In this document: positions 3,196 to 51,360 of the stretch, in pieces
Numbering within the stretch: the stretch's first letter is position 1
How the letters are laid out: each line of letters begins with the position of its first letter
NCBI GenBank assembly: GCA_903813345.2
Contig: CAIIXF020000006.1
Coordinates: forward strand, 38,159,348 to 38,223,347
DNA length: 64,000 nucleotides
Direction: 5' to 3'
From: Owenia fusiformis
Taxonomy: Eukaryota; Annelida; Polychaeta; Sabellida; Oweniidae
Notes under the pieces: model-generated
What the model saw: only the letters and a program-made list of their open reading frames with translations
Told to the model about the DNA's origin: nothing
The model's database searches: none
Program-made: the position numbers and the translations under genes

Positions 3196-3690
3196 ACTGG
3201 TGATCCACTCGATTACGATGGTTACTGAAAAGGTTCGTTTCGGTAACAAAATGTTGGAACGTCGAAGGTATGATATTTATTTTTTCCTAATGTCACGCGT
3301 TGTAGGCAGAATCCCCACGACATTTTTTCACACAAACGTGTATCATATGTTTTAGAAAAGGTACATATTTGTGAAAAAATAGCTCAAAAGACAACAGAAT
3401 CGTCGATTTAATTCCTCACTTTAGTTACGGAAATGATATTGGTTAAAAATGCAGATCTTAACTGTTTTTCAAAATATTGTTTCTGTAACTTAAGTGAGGA
3501 ATTAAAATGACGATTCAGTTGTCTTCTGAACTACTTGTTCGCAAATATGTACATTTTCTTAAACATATGTGATAGATATATGTTGTCGGTTTGTGATAAA
3601 AATGTTGTGGTAATTCTGCCTATAATGTGTGAAATAAGGAAAAAAGAAAAATCGTACCTTGGACTTTCGGAGTTGGTTACCAGTGATAAC
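3196..3690. mobile_element. foldback element, family A, copy 1
   Basis: The left half (CACTGGTGATCC, GGTTCGTTTCGGTAACAAAATG, ATTCCTCACTTTAGTTAC) is repeated in reverse complement in the right half, which ends ACCAGTGATAAC. The whole folds into one long imperfect hairpin of about 490 bp. The halves differ at many positions, so this copy is old. No coding capacity is visible. A second member at 58334-58745 shares the left arm closely, so this is a dispersed family, probably a non-autonomous DNA transposon. Confidence 0.75.
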
Positions 3691-30213: not shown

Positions 30214-32737
30214 ATGCTGAAGCTGATAGCACTAGGGTGTCTCTTAGCATTTGGTTTGGTGGTATATGGCCAGAAGATAGTATGTAAGTATGCTTGTTTG
30301 TCACTTAATTTGGCACGGGTGCATACATAATATATACGTATATATACTTCAATGAGGTACTTGAATTAAATATTAAAAATTAATTCAATTTATTTTCAAT
30401 GATGTTATTTATGTTTTTTTTTGTTTTTTATAGTGGAATGTGGTGTGGATATTGTCGTTATTTTGGATATATCCTGCAGAATCACTCCGCCAAACAAAGA
30501 CATCTTGCGTGAGTTTATGGTTAACTTTGCAAATTCCTTGGATATTGGACCTTCAGATGAGAAAGTGCAAGTAGGATTTTTAGATTTTCATTGGTGTTTG
30601 TTGCTCTTTTATCATTATATTAATCAAGCGTAAATTTAATTACTCGATACAAGAGAAATTGCAATATTTACGCACAGGATAGCAAGTGTCGTGTAACAGT
30701 CATTTAGTAGGACTTTCTGTTTATTGATATTTCTTGTAAAGGGTCGTATGCTTAGGACATATTGTCAAGATATATAATTAAAAACCTAATGGGCGGTTTT
30801 GTAGTTCTTATATTCAAGCATACTATTTGAATGAATACTTGTTAAATGCACGTGTCTGCTTGTTGTTCAATGGGAACGTACATTTGCATGTTAAATCTAC
30901 ATGTGATTAATTTCAGATGGGCCTTATAACATTTGATAGATTTGTCTATGACGAATTCTTCTTAAATACGTACAATTCGTCGAGTGAAATAGTGAATCAC
31001 ATAGAAAGAATGGATATTCACCCCTTCAATGACAAGAGGTCGAGATGTGGTGGTTCAAGAACAGATTTAGCTCTCGTATCAGCTAAAACATTGCATCTCA
31101 CAGTTGCTAAGGGTCTTCGTATTAGGGATTGGGATTGGGATTTTGGAATAATTTTTCATCAAATGCAAAAGATCGTACTGATTATAACTGCTGGTCCAAC
31201 GTTTCCTCCATCTAAAGTCAAGAATACCATAAGATACTCAAAGGAGCTCAAACACGATATAGGACCTAAGATATTCGTGGTTAGCTTATCAGACGTATTC
31301 ACTGAGAGACATAGCTGGTCAATGGTTGAATATAGTGCCATCGCCAGTCAGCCTTCGCAGGAGTTTGTTATCAATATCGACGGTTTCCACAATTTGCTTG
31401 TTTCCTTGGAAGAAATCGTGGGCGATTTTTGTGGTAAGAAGTAATGATTCTCGTTAACTTTTACTTCTTTAATTTTCATCTGATTTGCTTTCAATTTCTT
31501 TTCATCTTCTTTCTTAAGTATTCCTTTCTTTGGGTATATGCATCTCCCTTGTCACCGCTTGTGTTAATTCATCTAGTATACCATTCTAATACTCAGACCA
31601 TCTCTGCCATGCACGAGAGAAGGCTGTGATATCTCACGATGCTTGTATACAGGATGGCAAAACGATCGCCTCCGTTCTCATACCAAGCCTTCTGTCTACC
31701 TATCCATTCGAACTTTTGGTTTTATTTTAATAAAAAAAACACATCTTTGCACAGTAAAACGTTTTAACTTGAACCATTCAATTACTTTTAAGCACCTGAA
31801 CTTAATACTATTTTCAATAACTCAGATGCAAGTAGGTAGTTACCAGTTTAACCAACATGTGCCTCCTGTTATCTCAAAATCTGCTTGGAAATATGCCATT
31901 GGATTACTATGGAAAATTCCTCAAAGAGAAAATTCTTTGGATAAAGGAACTTAAACTAACGAGCCAACGACAAGAAGCAATGAGAGATAAATGGTTTATT
32001 GTTCTCAGGATACTGAAATAACAGCAAATAGCATCGAGAATTGAATAAATTATTTCTGTGTAAATTCATCACTCTGGTAATATATTAATAATAACTAAAC
32101 ATTTTACTCTGAAGTAAATTAACTTAAGTTATTATAAATAAATTATTGTTTTTAGATCCTCCATTTACTCCATCTACCGATTCACCTGCCCCAGACCCCT
32201 GCGAGAAGTTTGCCTCATTCAAGAAAAGTTGTTCTATCCCTATGTCAGCGTGTCATCCTTCAAACAGACGATGCTGCGGCTGTCCATTTATGTTTATTGA
32301 CCCAACTTCAAAGGTAGATCGATATTTATATTTATTTGAAAATGCCAGAGCGCCTTTGCAGTTCTAATACTTTTTATGTTGGGGGTAGTAGTAATAGAAC
32401 TAACAATTTCTGGGTAAACGTCACATTCGTTGTTTATTTTACATGGGTTAATATTTTTACTTTACAGTTTTCTTATTACAGAATGAATCAATAAATAAAA
32501 TTGACAAAAGCATCCATGTAAAGGCTATTATTCATTCAACTTTTGCAAGATGATGTTTTTCGCTTCTAGTCTGTGAAAACACCATTTGAGTTGGCTTACA
32601 AAGAAGGCAAATGTTTATGTGAGGACTGTGTGAGAAGATCGTATTACTGCCTTCCAAAGGAACTTAGAGAAATATTAGGATACGGGAAGCCATACTTCAA
32701 TTCCTTCCACCCATTACTAAAAAGGATGAAACCTTAG
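30214..32737 (+). CDS. secreted vWA-domain protein with Cys-rich C-terminus, intact
   Basis: Five exons with phase-consistent GT-AG junctions: 30214-30283, 30434-30570, 30917-31433, 32156-32313 and 32570-32737, giving 349 residues. The signal peptide (MLKLIALGCLLAFGLVVYGQ) is exon 1. Residues 28-235 form one von Willebrand A domain: DIVVILDIS as first strand, GLITFDRF, SRTDLALVSAK and KIVLIITAGPT. The metal site looks weak: DxSxS reads D35-I-S37-C-R39, and the usual ITDG aspartate is A161; T118 is kept. Residues 257-321 hold ten cysteines (C-x9-C-x6-C-x6-CC-x-C, then C-x-C-x2-C-x6-C), probably disulphide-linked. AATAAA at 32760. Probably extracellular; molluscan shell-matrix and byssal proteins use such domains, but that link is speculative. 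The exon 4 donor (GTAGAT) is weak, and reading past it would end at a TAA near 32365. Confidence 0.75.
31810..31970 (+). repeat. fragment of a dispersed repeat in vWA intron 3
   Basis: CAATAACTCAGATGCAAGTA and GGTAGTTACCAGTTTAACCA match the start of the longer repeats at 46795-47205 and 57115-57555. Only the first part is present, in the intron between exons 3 and 4. Confidence 0.55.
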
Positions 32738-43492: not shown

Positions 43493-43559
43493 AGAAGAAT
43501 GATCGAGAGTGATCATACACACAGTGAGAAACAACACAACACAAACGTAATCTATCAGC

Positions 43560-44171
43560 ATGAAAACTGAGCAGCAGCAACCACACTTGGACGACATGGT
43601 GGGACACCAATCTCCTAAAGAGAACTACAGCTCGTACGACGAGTACCTGGACGGCAGCCGGGCAGATCCCAACGAGATCAAGACTATCCCAGACAGCCAA
43701 CAAGACTACAATGTCCTCACACAAACCAATGGCCAAACAAAATCCAAAAGCAGCATCAACCCTGGCCAATCCAGGATGACACCTTACAAAATACCAAAGA
43801 AAACAAACAACATCATGGAGACCCTGGGTCTTACATCCAGAAAAACGCCAAACAACCTGCCAACAGCTGAAGCAGACAGAATTGCTTTAGAAAACCTAAA
43901 AAAGGCGACACATTGGGAGGCCCGCCACCAGGGAGCGTTGAACGCCATTGAGAACTCACCAGAAGGAATACCCAAGGGACTCACCCCTAAAATATCCTGT
44001 AATGTCCCAGAGAAAGACAAATCCGACATTGCAGAGGCGTTTGAAGCAATACTCTACAAATGTGGCGAGGAACTAGCAAACGCAGCAGCACTCCATAGCC
44101 AGAACCGGTTGGAGTTCTTCAAACAAGAAATAACTTCACTGACCATACAGTTGGCAACTACCATTGGGTAA
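43560..44171 (+). CDS. 203-residue hydrophilic protein of a putative retroelement
   Basis: A clean frame with A at -3 of the ATG and a base composition (about half GC) unlike its AT-rich surroundings. No signal peptide or membrane segment. The N-terminal 95 residues are Q/S/N/P-rich and probably disordered. Residues about 105-200 look helical: ALENLKKATHWEARHQGALN, then SPEGIPKGLTPKISCNVP, then long helices (DIAEAFEAILYKCGEELANA, LHSQNRLEFFKQEITSLTIQ). The IPKGL/CN pattern before an H-rich helix recalls, from memory and untested, small proteins that accompany Penelope-like elements. It lies 2 kb upstream of a hammerhead ribozyme on the same strand. No reverse transcriptase or endonuclease frame is present. 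A host gene remains possible. Confidence 0.6.
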   Translation: MKTEQQQPHLDDMVGHQSPKENYSSYDEYLDGSRADPNEIKTIPDSQQDYNVLTQTNGQTKSKSSINPGQSRMTPYKIPKKTNNIMETLGLTSRKTPNNLPTAEADRIALENLKKATHWEARHQGALNAIENSPEGIPKGLTPKISCNVPEKDKSDIAEAFEAILYKCGEELANAAALHSQNRLEFFKQEITSLTIQLATTIG

Positions 44172-44361
44172 AAGGCAGCGGAAAAAACCACAAAAAACCT
44201 CCGTAATTCAGCTGCTGAAAGCAGACCAAGAAGGCGCAACTCATCAACCAACAGATCAACCTAAACAACCAAAACAACCCCGGCCCTTTTCAGGGCCACC
44301 CATCTCTACCAAAAGAGAAATTGAAATTATGAATCAATCTTTAAGCTACTTGTCAAACTGA
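44164..44361 (+). other. overlapping basic frame after the 203-residue ORF
   Basis: An open frame that overlaps the end of the upstream ORF by a few codons and is lysine/glutamine/proline-rich (KRQRKKPQKTS, QPKQPKQPRPFSGPP). It has no ATG near its start. Whether it is translated is unknown. Confidence 0.3.
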
Positions 44362-44512: not shown

Positions 44513-46090
44513 ATTATATTTATAAACCACCCAATATAACAACCAAACAACCCAATAAAACAACCTAAAGTATCAATCCCACCAAACACGCAAATAAAAC
44601 AAGAAATTATGAAAACGCGTACGGAATAACAACATCCCCGTTCAAGTTAATATCTCAGCAACAAGATATGCCTCCATTATAACACTTACCACTTCACGAA
44701 GCAGAGACTATATACTAAACAACCAAACAACTCAGATACCGACCGAATAAAACAACATCTCCCCACGAAACCAATAAGTATTTCACAAATCCCGAAACAT
44801 TAAGAAAACACCAGAACACAAAAATATCAGAACGCGTACGAAAACAACTTTCCAATTTAAGTTAATATCTCAACAAAATGAGATGCCTCCATTATAACCC
44901 TTACCACTTTATGAAACTGAGACTATATACTTAACAACCAAACAAACCAAATACCGACCGAATCAAACAACATCTCTCCACGAAGCAACACCCATTCTGA
45001 AACCAGCAATTATTTAGAAAAACACGATAAAACATCGAAACGCGTACAGAATAACAACACCCACCATTCAAGTTAATATCTCAACAAAAAGAGATGCCTC
45101 CATTATAACCCTTACCACTTTATGAAGCTGAGACTATATACTAAACAACCAATCAACCAAAAAACCAATTCACCGACCGAATAAAACAACATTTCCCCAC
45201 GAAACCAACACATATAACACCAGAACACAAGAATATCAGAACGCGTATGGAAAAACAGCTCACCAATTTAAGTTAATATCTCAACAACAAGACATACCTC
45301 CATTAAAACACTTACCACCCCACATAACCGAAACTATATACTAAACAACCAAACAACCAAACAAACCATATACCGACCGAATCAAACAACATTTCTCCAC
45401 GAAGCAACACTTATACTGAAACCGGCAATTATTTCGAAAAACACGATAAAACATCGAAACGCGTACGGAATAACAACACCCCCGTTCAAGTTAATATCTC
45501 AACAAAGGAGATGCCTCCATTATAACCCTTACCATTTTATGAAGCTGAGACCATATACTAAACAACCAAAAAACCAATTTACCGACCGAATAAAACAACA
45601 TTTCCCCACGAAACCAACGCATACAACACCAGAACACAAGAATATCAGAACGTGTACGGAAAAACAGCTCACCAATTTAAGTTAATATCTCAACAACAAG
45701 ACATGCCTCCATTAGAACACTTACCTCTCCATATAACCGAAACCATATACTAAACAACCAAAAAACCAAACAACCCAAATAACGACCGAATCAAACAACA
45801 TTTCTGCACGAAACCAACACTTATTCTGAAACCCACAATTATTTCGAAAAACACAAAACAAGATAAAACATTGAAACGCGTACAAAAAACGAACACCCCC
45901 AATCAAGTTAATATCTCACCAATAAGATATGCCTCCATTATAAAAATTACCACTTCATGTAGCTAAGACTATATACTAAACAACCAAACAACCAAACAAC
46001 CCAGACACCGACCGAATAAAACAAGATTTCCCCACGAAACAAACACTTCATTTCACAAAACCCGAAACATTAAGAAAACGCCAAAACGGG
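44513..46090 (+). repeat. tandem array with two alternating unit types
   Basis: Seven to eight units of about 195-225 bp. Each has an ACGCGTACGGA-like box, AAGTTAATATCTCAACAA, GATGCCTCCATTATAAC, ACTATATACTAAACAACC and ACCGACCGAATAAAACAAC. Two variants alternate: type A after AAACGCGTACGGAATAACAAC-like boxes (near 44613, 45035, 45457, 45875) and type B after ACGCGTATGGAAAAACAGC-like boxes (near 44832, 45240, 45650). That gives a higher-order period of about 410-422 bp. Strongly A/C-rich on this strand. It lies between the ORF and the ribozyme. Confidence 0.85.
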
Positions 46091-46197
46091 GTTAACGCCT
46101 CCCATAACTAATATTGATTGGATGAGAACAATACGTATCATTCACGATAACAAAATAACAAACACATTTTTTACTTTTAATACATTTTTTATTTTTT

Positions 46198-46313
46198 GGC
46201 CGCTGATGATGAACATATCATGGACGACAACCCATGAGTTCGAAACATCTTGGGCCCTTAATGTGACTAACACATAAGGGAGAAGATCCACTACAGGATC
46301 GAGATGTCCGGCC
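46198..46313 (+). ncRNA. hammerhead ribozyme, type I topology
   Basis: All conserved parts are present. Stem I: GGCCG (46198-46202) pairs with CGGCC (46309-46313). Core CTGATGA is 46203-46209. Stem II: GAAC (46211-46214) with GTTC (46238-46241), then CATGG (46219-46223) with CCATG (46232-46236). Core GAAA is 46242-46245. Stem III: CATCTT (46246-46251) with GAGATG (46301-46306), plus the A46245-U46307 pair. The predicted cleavage site is after C46308 (UC). One extra U (46210) lies between A9 and stem II; extra bases there are known in some natural hammerheads. Stem III is unusually large and contains two further hairpins: 46255-46280 (CCCTTA/TAAGGG, TGTG/CACA) and 46285-46300 (GATCC/GGATC). 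The chance of all this arising at random is very low. Confidence 0.8.
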
Positions 46314-46794
46314 TTCACTACATAAATGACAGCAAGAGATGACACACTAATGTCACCATCTTGGGGTCTACCAAATATACTTTACCTGTCACATAATCAC
46401 TGACGATAGTTCGGGGAAGCTTAGATACTAGACTTTGTCTCCCAGGTCCCACCAACGAGGCCTCTCACCAATGTACACAGATTACATGATTCATGTGTGT
46501 TCATAACAGGTGATGTCTCAAGACATGGTCTAAGTCACCACCCCCCACAATATAATAATCGAAGCAAATTGAATTTCCATCTTCTTTTCTAATTATTGTC
46601 TGGATTATAGAATATTATTATACATATGTACTAATGTTGGATCGGGATAATGCCTATGACGTTGTGTTTTGCGGACCAATAGAAAATTGTTCATGTTATC
46701 GTGTTGCATTGCGGGAAATATTTATGTTAATGACCAGTAATTTCCTAACGCGAATAGGACTATTGAAAGATCTTGAAAATATAATACCCCCGTC

Positions 46795-47205
46795 ATAAAA
46801 ACTAAGATGCGCGTGGGCAGTTACCAGTTTCACCACCAGGTGACTCATTCTGGTCAGATAGTATGGCGGATACGGTAGAGAGTTCCCGTTAACTTAGATA
46901 TTCATCAGTTTTGGTGGTTCAATTTTCATATCACCCTTGTGTATCTAATAATTATGCAAATATTATCTGTCCGATACGCAAAAAGATATTTCACTTTTTT
47001 TATAACATGGGTCTATGGGGAATCTCTGCGAACTAGAAGTCACATTTTCAAAAAATTTAATTTTCAAAATTGATAAACAATTTTTGAAACCGTATTTCTA
47101 GATGTACTTTCACGTGTAGATTTCAAATATGATAATACCTTGGCTGAATTTGGAATATTTAATGACATAAACCAAGATTATTTCCACTCGCATCTAGTCT
47201 ATTGA
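46795..47205 (+). repeat. dispersed repeat, copy 1
   Basis: GGGCAGTTACCAGTTTCACC, CAGATAGTATGGCGGATACG, TATGCAAATATTATCTGTCC and ACTAGAAGTCACATTTTC recur in order at 57115-57555 at roughly 80-85% by eye. A fragment lies at 31810. Non-coding and unclassified. Confidence 0.7.
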
Positions 47206-47817: not shown

Positions 47818-47848
47818 GTATGATTTATAAGATCTTAATTGTTGTTAA

Positions 47849-48599
47849 GGTGCTATGGAAGTTAACAGGAAATGACAAAACAGGAAGTGACAATTTTTTT
47901 TGCATTTTTAGATATTTTTTGAATAAAAATAACAGAGTTCTGGTTTGACCTCCAGTCAATTTAACTATTTCCACATATCATTTACATGACCAGGATCACA
48001 ATGTGCATGGTCAGAATGACCCTAAACATGATGAAATAACCTTTTTAGCCCTTTGAAAGTGTGACTGAAAAAAAAAGTAGGAGCGTAGGGATAGTCACTG
48101 AACAGAATCTTTTGAATTTTTCAGAAAATGTGCCCAATATAATGCTCTAACTAGTACAATCTTTGAAATTTTAGAAAATTGTCTTAAACAAAAATGGCAG
48201 TCATAAAAAGGAAATTAGATCGCTTTTCAAATCAGTTTTTTCATTTTTTTTCTTTTTCTATGAATGATATCAAATTTTCAAAGATTGTATCATTTAGAGC
48301 AATATATTAGGCACATTTTCTGAAAAATTCAAAAGATTCTGTTTAGTGACCTTCCCTACGCTCCTACTTTTAGCTTTTTTTCAGTCACACTTTCAAAGGG
48401 CTAAAAAGGTTATTTCATCATGTTTAGGGTCATTCTGACCATGCACATTGTGATCCTGGTCATGTAAATGATATGTGGAAATAGTTAAATTGACTGGAGG
48501 TCAAACCAGAACTCTGTTATCTTTATTCAAAAAATATCTAAAAATGCAAAAAAATTGTCACTTCCTGTTTTGTCATTTCCTGTTAAGTTCCATAGCACC
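47849..48599. mobile_element. TTAA-flanked foldback element in intron 2 of copy C
   Basis: A near-perfect inverted repeat: the left arm starts GGTGCTATGGAAGTTAACAG, the right arm ends CTGTTAAGTTCCATAGCACC, and arms of about 330 bp flank a short centre near 48180-48260. TTAA is duplicated at 47845-47848 and 48600-48603. The intact gene's intron 2 (TTTGTTGCTCTTTTATC near 30595) serves as the empty site, matching TTGCTCTTTTATC just after the element. TTAA targets are typical of piggyBac-like transposons. No transposase. The arms are close to identical, so it is young. Confidence 0.85.
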
Positions 48600-48654
48600 T
48601 TAATTGCTCTTTTATCGTAATACTAATAATCAAGGTTAAGCTAGATAGAACCCA

Positions 48655-51360
48655 GCTAACAATTTTACGTTGTGATAACGTCGTCAGAATATATGTCTCA
48701 AGTTGTAGCAACGTTAATATGGAACGTTGTAGGTACAGGAAGGTGTGGACTCGCACAGATGTTTAAAGAACGTTACATTTGACTTAAATATCACGTGTCA
48801 GGAACGTAGTAGCGACCTTAACAATTACGTCGCCAAAATAACGAAACTGTAACGTACTTACATTACGTCATATATACGTGGCCAATCTAAATTTCTGGTA
48901 ACGTTGATATGGAACGTTGTAGGAACAGGAAGGTGTGGACTCGCACAGATGTTTAAAGAACGTTACATTTGACTTAAATATCACGTGTCAGGAACGTAGT
49001 AGCGACCTTAACAATTACGTCGCCAAAATAACGAAACTGTAACGTACTTACATTACGTCATATATACGTGGCCAATCTAAATTTCTGGTAACGTTGATAT
49101 GGAACGTTGTAGGTACAGGAAGGTGTGGACTCGCATAGATGTTTAAAGAACGTTACATTTGACTTAAATATCACGTGTCAGGAACGTAGTAGCGACCTTA
49201 ACAATTACGTCACCAAAATAACGAAAATGTAACGTACTTACATTACGTCATAAATACGTGGCCAATCTAAATTTCTGGTAACGTTGATATGGAACGTTGT
49301 AGGTACAGGAAGGTGTGGACTCGCACAGATGTTTAAAGAACGTTACATTTGACTTAAATATCACGTGTCAGGAACGTAGTAGCGACCTTAACAATTACGT
49401 CGCCAAAATAACGAAACTTTAACGTACTTACATTACGTCATATATACGTGGCCAATCTAAATTTCTGGTAACGTTGATATGGAACGTTGTAGGTACAGGA
49501 AGGTGTGGACTCGCATAGATGTTTAAAGAACGTTACATTTGACTTAAATATCACGTGTCAGGAACGTAGTAGCGACCTTAACAATTACGTCACCAAAATA
49601 ACGAAAATGTAACGTACTTACATTACGTCATAAATACGTGGCCAATCTAAATTTCTAGTAACGTTGATATGGAACGTTGTAGGCACAGGAAGGTGTGGAC
49701 TCGCACAGATGTTTAAAGAACGTTACATTTGACTTAAATATCACGTGTCAGGAACGTAGTATCGACCTTAACAATAACGTCGCCAAAATAACGAAACTGT
49801 AACGTACTTACATTACGTCATATATACGTGGCCAATCTAAATTTCTGGTAATGTTGATATGGAACGTTGTAGGTACGGGAAGGTGTGGACTCGCACAGAT
49901 GTTTAAAAAACGTTACATTTGACTTAAATATCACGTGTCAGGAACGTAGTAGCGACCTTAACAATTACGTCACCAAAATAACGAAAATGTAACGTACTTA
50001 CATTACGTCATAAATACGTGGCCAATCTAAATTTCTAGTAACGTTGATATGGAACGTTGTAGGTACAGGAAGGTGTGGACTCGCACAGATGTTTAAAGAA
50101 CGTTACATTTGACTTAAATATCACGTGTCAGGAACGTAGTAGCGACCTTAACAATTACGTCGCCAAAATAACGAAACTGTAACGTACTTACATTACGTCA
50201 TATATACGTGGCCAATCTAAATTTCTGGTAACGTTGATATGGAACGTTGTAGGTACAGGAAGGTGTGGACTCGCATAGATGTTTAAAGAACGTTACATTT
50301 GACTTAAATATCACGTGTCAGGAACGTAGTAGTGACCTTAACAATTATGTCGCCAAAATAACGAAAATGTAACGTACTTACATTACGTCATAAATACGTG
50401 GCCAATCTAAATTTCTGGTAACGTTGATATGGAACGTTGTAGGTACAGGAAGGTGTGGACTCGCACATATGTTTAAAGAACGTTACATTTGACTTAAATA
50501 TCACGTGCCAGGAACGAAGAACCAACCTAAACGATGACTTCGCCAAAATAACGAAAATGTAACGAACTTACATTACGTCATAAATACGTGGCCAATCTAA
50601 ATTTCTGGTAACGTTGATATGGAACGTTGTAGGTACAGGAAGGTGTGGACTCGCACAGATGTTCAAAGAACGTTACATTTGACTTAAATATCACGTGCCA
50701 GGAACGTAGAACCAACCTAAACGATAACTTCGCAAAAATAACTGTAATGTGCTTATGCAACGTCACATATACGTGGCCAGTTTTAAGTTCTGGTACGTTA
50801 ATTATGGAACGTTGTAGGTACAGGAAGGTGTGGACTCGCACAGATGTTTAAAGAACGTTACATTTGACTTAAACATCACGTGCCAGGAATGTAGAACCAA
50901 CCTTAAGAATGACTTCGCAAAAATAGTGAGACTGTAATGTGCTTATGCAACGTAACATATACCTGGCCAGTTTAAAGTTCTGGTAACGTTTATCTTGGAA
51001 CGATGTAGGCACAGGAAGGTCTGGACTCGCACAGATGTTTATACAACGTTACATTTTACTTAAATATCATGTGCTAGGAATGTAGTAGCAACCTTAACAA
51101 TGACTGCAAAAATAAAATGACAGACTGTAACGTGCTTATGCAACGTCACATATACGTGGTCAAGTTAAAGTTCTGGTTACATTAATTATAGAACGTTGTA
51201 GGCAAAGGAAAGTGTGGACACGCATAAATGAGTATACAAGTTACGTTCGACTTAGATATCACTAGCCAGGAATGTAGTACCAACCTTAACAACGACTTTG
51301 CCAAAATAAAGAGACTGTAACGTGCTTGTCACATACATGGCAAATTCATAACTTCTGGTT
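48655..51360 (+). repeat. 190-bp satellite array, ACGT-rich
   Basis: Fourteen or so units. The phase marker TGATATGGAACGTTGTAGG recurs every 190 bp at about 48711, 48901, 49091, 49281, 49471, 49661, 49851, 50041, 50231, 50421 and 50611. Later units decay to about 51360. Many units alternate between a form with GAAACTGT and TATATACG and one with GAAAATGT and TAAATACG, giving a 380-bp higher-order period over 49091-50420. Each unit is dense in AACGTT, TACGT and CACGTG palindromes. It starts in AGCTAACAATTTTACGTTGT. The class of the founding element is unknown. Confidence 0.9.

Follow-up and report, generated by a model that had tools for sequence, protein, structure and literature searches.

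The window, that is, the whole 64-kb stretch of Owenia fusiformis DNA that was analysed, holds a candidate hammerhead ribozyme at 46198-46313 on the + strand. Tandem arrays are found on both of its flanks. Units of 409 bp (3.4 copies, 44613-46046) end about 150 bp before the candidate, and units of 190 bp (13.8 copies, 48710-51327) are repeated on the other side. Directly upstream, an 18-nt A/T-rich direct repeat, present twice, lies against stem I. No second copy of the candidate was found within the window. A tandem retrozyme was considered and rejected, as the window gives one hammerhead match and the neighbouring 409-bp array gives none with the descriptor used below. A tRNA at the locus was also rejected (0 by ARAGORN), as was a protein-coding stretch, because the Pfam search of eight nearby frames gave a single match, to a hormone family and below threshold. 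Neither these eight frames nor six long frames contain a reverse transcriptase above the domain cut-off. One frame of the window, which we take to be LINE-like, reached only a Pfam E-value of 0.074, below the cut-off.

Several other features were observed in the window. A frame at 30911-31444 (+) encodes a von Willebrand A domain (Pfam E 2.1e-7), and its closest solved chain is collagen VI alpha 3. A histone 3' UTR stem-loop is located at 44277-44322 (+) (Rfam RF00032, 35.1 bits, threshold 34), and a 206-aa frame at 43551-44171, which has no Pfam match, lies about 100 bp before it. In a large inverted repeat (47825-48056 and 48393-48603), the same peptide (PPVNLTISTYHLHDQDHNVHG...) is framed on opposite strands.

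Hammerhead cores and three stems had been reported at 46198-46313 by the first-pass annotation. They are present (Table 1), and the fold obtained without constraint is that of a hammerhead, with the type I layout, in which the core is ringed by three stems and stem I is open. The type I core at the locus comprises CUGANGA, GAA, the A15.1-U16.1 pair (46245-46307), and H at position 17, plus an extra U after A9. This single U at the boundary between A9 and stem II, noticed on first reading, is indeed read at 46210. The GAAC/GTTC part of stem II stands as it was first described, but its continuation is a TCATGG/CCATGA helix of 6 bp and not the 5-bp CATGG/CCATG helix. Stem III has 7 bp, including one G-U pair, and its strands are separated by 49 nt that hold two further hairpins. 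The unconstrained fold contains this insert as it had been proposed. A possible extension of stem I lies across a 10/10-nt internal loop and is weak and A/U-rich. By eye, no Watson-Crick contact was seen between the loops of stems I and II.

Table 1. Parts of the candidate hammerhead (46198-46313, + strand), in positions of the window.
Feature	Position	Strand	Basis or remark
Possible stem I outer extension, 5' strand	46183-46187	+	Pairs with 46324-46328
Stem I, 5' strand, GGCCG	46198-46202	+	Read from sequence, folding, pairs checked singly
Conserved core CTGATGA (CUGAUGA, C3 to A9)	46203-46209	+	Read from sequence
Extra T (U), A9/stem II junction	46210	+	Read from sequence
Stem II, whole: GAAC/GTTC, 3-nt bulge, TCATGG/CCATGA, 8-nt loop	46211-46241	+	Folding
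Stem II, GAAC/GTTC part	46211-46214/46238-46241	+	
Stem II, continuation TCATGG/CCATGA, 6 bp	46218-46223/46232-46237	+	
Conserved core GAA (G12, A13, A14)	46242-46244	+	Read from sequence
Stem III, 5' strand, ACATCTT (ACAUCUU), first base A15.1	46245-46251	+	Folding, pairs checked
Stem III hairpin 1, 10 bp, one bulged A	46255-46280	+	Folding
Stem III hairpin 2, 5 bp, 6-nt loop	46285-46300	+	Folding
Stem III, 3' strand, GAGATGT (GAGAUGU), last base U16.1	46301-46307	+	Folding, pairs checked
C17, predicted cleavage 46308/46309	46308	+	Position by analogy with hammerheads
Stem I, 3' strand, CGGCC	46309-46313	+	Read from sequence, folding, pairs checked
Possible stem I outer extension, 3' strand	46324-46328	+	Pairs with 46183-46187

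The folding of the 116 nt was analysed together with that of its parts. The unconstrained minimum free energy structure is the hammerhead fold (-39.9 kcal/mol, z -4.74), and none of 200 shuffles is as good. The stem II hairpin has a z-score of -3.03 (9 of 1000 shuffles equally good), and the whole stem III insert has a z-score of -3.48 (6 of 1000). Both stem II and the insert of stem III have more structure than a match to the motif demands, a point in favour of a real ribozyme. The pair probability of stem III is 0.52-0.61. With flanks up to 46050-46560, stem I pairs with a mean probability of 0.88-0.97, stem II with 0.90-0.91, and stem III with 0.48-0.53; in a context of 711 or 1001 nt, the values of stems I and III are reduced to 0.08-0.16. 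The main competing fold, in which GATG of the core is paired with CATC of stem III, is 0.5 kcal/mol worse.

How readily such a match arises by chance was estimated with a descriptor that demands the full core and GAA(A), permits 0 or 1 extra nucleotide at position 10, and allows a stem III span of up to about 110 nt. The candidate is its single match in the 64-kb window at every stem setting tried. With stems of at least 5/4/6 bp, no match was obtained in 1000 and in 12,000 dinucleotide-shuffled windows, and with stems loosened to 3/3/4 bp, 389 matches were obtained in 12,000. Extrapolation to the observed 5/4/8 run would put the chance, for a stretch of 64 kb, at about 1e-5 to 1e-4. Inverted repeats are commoner in real DNA than in shuffles, so these rates are optimistic. 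Prokaryotic contigs were scanned for the 5' half-pattern (core, extra base, stem II, and GAAAC). It matched 42 times, the rough chance expectation being about 29, and none of the 42 half-matches is completed by stems I and III at the strength of the candidate; three are completed weakly, with 3 bp in stem I and 2-4 bp in stem III. In addition, our own log-odds scorer was trained on 135 natural hammerheads, among the matches listed, from the viral contigs described below. Its mismatch weights and 15% uniform length tail were the author's choice, made after the candidate was known. The candidate scores 25.8 bits and is the sole match of at least 8 bits within the window. Shuffles reached at most 16.8 bits in a set of 800 and at most 23.2 bits, in one shuffle, in a further set of 12,800. 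The tail of these shuffles, when extrapolated, would correspond to a chance of about 1e-5 per window. Measured on the scorer's natural yardstick, which is its own training set, the candidate lies below all 135 hammerheads among the matches listed, the minimum of which is 30.0 bits.

Natural hammerheads for comparison come from viral contigs. A scan for a common stem II gave at least 120 stretches (119 distinct among the matches listed), and a second scan, with a pattern in which the extra T is fixed, again gave at least 120. Close relatives of the candidate were sought in viral contigs by two separate exact-pattern scans, each with zero matches. Among the matches listed in the common-stem-II scan, 85 are type I hammerheads (at least 4 bp in stem I and at least 3 bp in stem III), and the spacing from A15.1 to U16.1 is 12-25 nt in 75 of them and at least 44 nt in seven. 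In three of these seven (on contigs L128, L129, and L155), the stem III helix measures 9-12 bp; the remaining four have just 3-5 bp in stem III and are doubtful. The 240 viral loci listed contain 135 distinct hammerheads with at least 4, 3, and 5 bp in stems I, II, and III, respectively, and at least 14 pairs in total. Among these listed matches, an extra nucleotide occupies position 10 in 13 of the 135, and it is U in every one of the 13; seven match the search pattern that fixes the U, and six do not match it and have U there too. Equally among the matches listed, at least 30 nt lie inside stem III in 13 of the 135. The related contigs L216 and L221 show the extra U together with a stem III forked into two hairpins, so both features co-occur in nature. 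Hence, the oddity emphasized by the first-pass annotation, a large forked stem III with an extra U, is real but not unique. A forked stem III without the extra U is present in L155 and in one hammerhead of L154. Stem I is unformed when the trimmed pieces of L216 and L221 are folded.

The viral contigs also provided observations of their own. The extra-U hammerheads, one per contig, at L216:3341-3444 (-) and L221:10500-10603 (-) have stem III inserts of 67 nt that are forked and almost the same in both, and each of the two contigs carries several hammerheads. The viral contig L242 bears an array of tRNA genes, and its hammerhead at 3374-3537 (-) combines the extra U with a long stem III. Cleavage is predicted at 3463/3462, precisely where a tRNA-Tyr gene has its 5' end, and the opening bases of that tRNA double as the 3' strand of stem I; such a hammerhead could generate a tRNA 5' end without RNase P. 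Hammerheads at the viral loci L128:7032 (+) and L274:3501 (+) have a stem III insert in common, and it contains the motif GAGTCCGCAAA two times.

Covariance models were applied to the window and to these hammerheads. Rfam reported no hammerhead in the window, in the locus, or in the 5' half of the locus. At the gathering threshold, it reported only tRNAs in ten viral loci known here to carry hammerheads, and up to E 10 it found neither the L242 hammerhead nor two neighbouring L216 hammerheads, one of which scores 63.5 bits with our own model, R1. The Rfam miss of the candidate is therefore uninformative, since clear hammerheads are missed too. In prokaryote genomes, Rfam Hammerhead_1 gave 0/3 and, in another run, 1/391, below the cut-off, and Hammerhead_3 gave 0/1. 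R1 was built from 21 hammerheads with a short stem III and A/U-rich stems I. With filters off, it returned 18 matches in the window up to E 10, and the candidate is absent among them, i.e., it is below about 8 bits. Of six controls with at least 42 nt in stem III, R1 found five up to E 1 (L216 at 28.2 bits, L129 at 23.9, L128 at 23.0, L221 at 21.6, and L155 at 12.1) and missed L242; these controls are not independent, as the training rows come partly from the same contigs. Because five of six long-stem-III controls are found, the miss by R1 is evidence against the candidate and carries some weight. Two further alignments that included long forms misplaced the extra U or stem II. The covariance-model match to which the first-pass annotation had looked was thus obtained neither with Rfam, a weak test, nor with R1.

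The candidate shares features with several known systems. According to the available portions of PMC7229834 and PMC7761336, helix III of the described animal type I hammerheads consists of about two pairs and a tetraloop in invertebrates, is weaker in amphibians, and is missing in Penelope-like elements, which agrees with the first-pass remark that stem III is usually short in animals. The same portions describe metazoan non-LTR retrozymes, whose type I hammerheads have the permutation, with stem I open, and the core seen in the candidate; in mussel retrozymes, most of the conserved loop contacts are absent, and in the candidate no Watson-Crick loop contact was seen by eye. As far as these excerpts go, metazoan retrozymes combine a short helix III with tandem repeats of about 150-450 bp, whereas the candidate has a long forked stem III and one copy in the window. 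The minimal hammerheads of Penelope-like elements and Terminons are, in those excerpts, likewise type I and located in animal genomes. However, they are described there as being without helix III and possibly acting as dimers, whereas stem III is the largest part of the candidate, and the frames scanned around it show no element of that sort. A likeness in layout is also shown by L216 and L221, which have in common with the candidate the type I form, the extra U10, and the two-hairpin stem III; they differ in having a plain short stem II hairpin and, by eye, a stem III insert whose sequence seems unlike. An extra nucleotide between A9 and stem II is also reported, in the accessible part of PMC3705267, for the plus-strand hammerhead of chrysanthemum chlorotic mottle viroid, a plant viroid; the base there is A, in contrast to U in the candidate, and U at that site is described as compatible with trans-cleavage. 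A hammerhead alignment review likewise states, in its available part, that one or two inserted nucleotides are tolerated beside CUGAnGA (PMC10085705). One grossly enlarged helix is a feature of the discontinuous hammerhead of mammalian Clec2 mRNAs, although PMC6155905 describes a type III hammerhead in which the enlargement affects helix I and not stem III. A phrase search of open-licence PMC papers found no description of hammerheads with an enlarged or branched stem or helix III.

A complete type I hammerhead secondary structure is supported by how the segment folds, by the controls for chance, and by the comparison with hammerheads found in nature. The segment is best read as an atypical type I hammerhead and is probably a genuine ribozyme, intact or recently intact, with predicted activity. 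The earlier claim of a complete hammerhead ribozyme therefore holds for the type I secondary structure, does not gain covariance-model support, and with regard to function is something we infer. A + strand transcript, if made, would fold into the hammerhead junction, with the 7-bp stem III helix forking into two hairpins. In the hammerhead mechanism, G12 is the general base and the 2'-OH of G8 is the general acid. The 2'-OH of C46308 would attack the next phosphate, so that the upstream RNA would end in ...GUC with a 2',3'-cyclic phosphate and the downstream RNA would start with 5'-OH-CGGCC at 46309. Owing to its stable stem III, the candidate should be able to work alone, as one motif, in contrast to the Penelope and newt forms, which need dimers. 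It most likely descends from a ribozyme-bearing retroelement of the retrozyme or Penelope kind, as a single copy or a relic, and would have processed the end of the element's transcript; this origin is suggested by the known biology of animal hammerheads, as given in the consulted sections of PMC7229834 and PMC7761336. It is improbable, but conceivable, that stem III is a separate folded domain controlling cleavage, i.e., that the segment is a natural allosteric ribozyme with an architecture common to L216 and L221, the GATG/CATC pairing being its off state.

Several readings compete with that of a genuine ribozyme. Shape without function would be expected of a decayed hammerhead, a relic that has lost cutting through the rival fold or through lost loop contacts. 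The rival fold within 0.5 kcal/mol, the disappearance of stems I and III in a long context, the single copy in the window, and the lack of an obvious loop contact by eye are all consistent with it, whereas decay would be expected to break core residues and stem pairs, and here the former are all kept and the latter are unbroken. Such decay appears rather unlikely, and it overlaps with the "recently intact" part of the preferred reading. Chance would require that hairpin-rich DNA happened to place the hammerhead core nucleotides in a junction, with neither ribozyme ancestry nor cleavage. The first-pass statement that the joint match is improbable by chance holds for one window (0 of 12,000 shuffles at 5/4/6 bp) but not for a whole genome or many windows, where a match is possible: a rate of about 1e-5 per window would imply that an animal genome of gigabase size contains about 0.1-1 match of this kind. 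The single copy, the absence of the candidate from the R1 matches, its score under every natural hammerhead in the log-odds scorer, and the best shuffle of 23.2 bits against its 25.8 bits point in the same direction. Against chance, the inserted base is U, as in 13 of 13 natural cases among the matches listed, stems II and III are elsewhere more structured than they need to be, the hammerhead is obtained by folding without constraint, and none of the 42 chance-like prokaryotic half-matches is completed at comparable strength. For these reasons, coincidence is considered unlikely.

The remaining alternatives concern other kinds of element. On the minus strand, the locus could be a SINE-like element or LINE end whose A-rich tail would be 46161-46196 in reverse; the + strand hammerhead would then be incidental. 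The 18-nt A/T-rich repeat against stem I would serve as the 3' tail, and the minus strand around 46175-46324 does fold better than its shuffles (z -1.9 to -2.4); however, the + strand folds better there (z -2.8 to -4.6), there is no exact 8-14 nt direct repeat between 46100-46200 and 46450-46950, no tRNA, and no inverted repeat in 46080-46600, which makes this reading very improbable. A C/D-box snoRNA, with ATGATGA at 46206-46212 as box C and GGCC as the terminal stem, is scarcely credible. The box C consensus is present and weak matches to archaeal sR families (6-9 bits) were obtained, but these are far below the gathering scores of 38-54, and the snoRNA was rejected because box D is missing, no CUGA being seen by eye before the 3' strand of the stem.

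The genuine but atypical type I hammerhead is thus the reading to be carried forward, with transcription, cleavage, action as a monomer, and a mobile-element origin as what we infer from it. If the candidate is active, animal type I hammerheads extend beyond forms with a short or absent helix III. Current models would then overlook such forms; Rfam listed no hammerhead for any of the ten hammerhead-bearing viral contigs, nor for two of them when matches up to E 10 were allowed. Together with the phage examples, the candidate would point to an under-counted subclass of hammerheads, in which an extra U accompanies a structured stem III and whose members can be counted and assayed directly.
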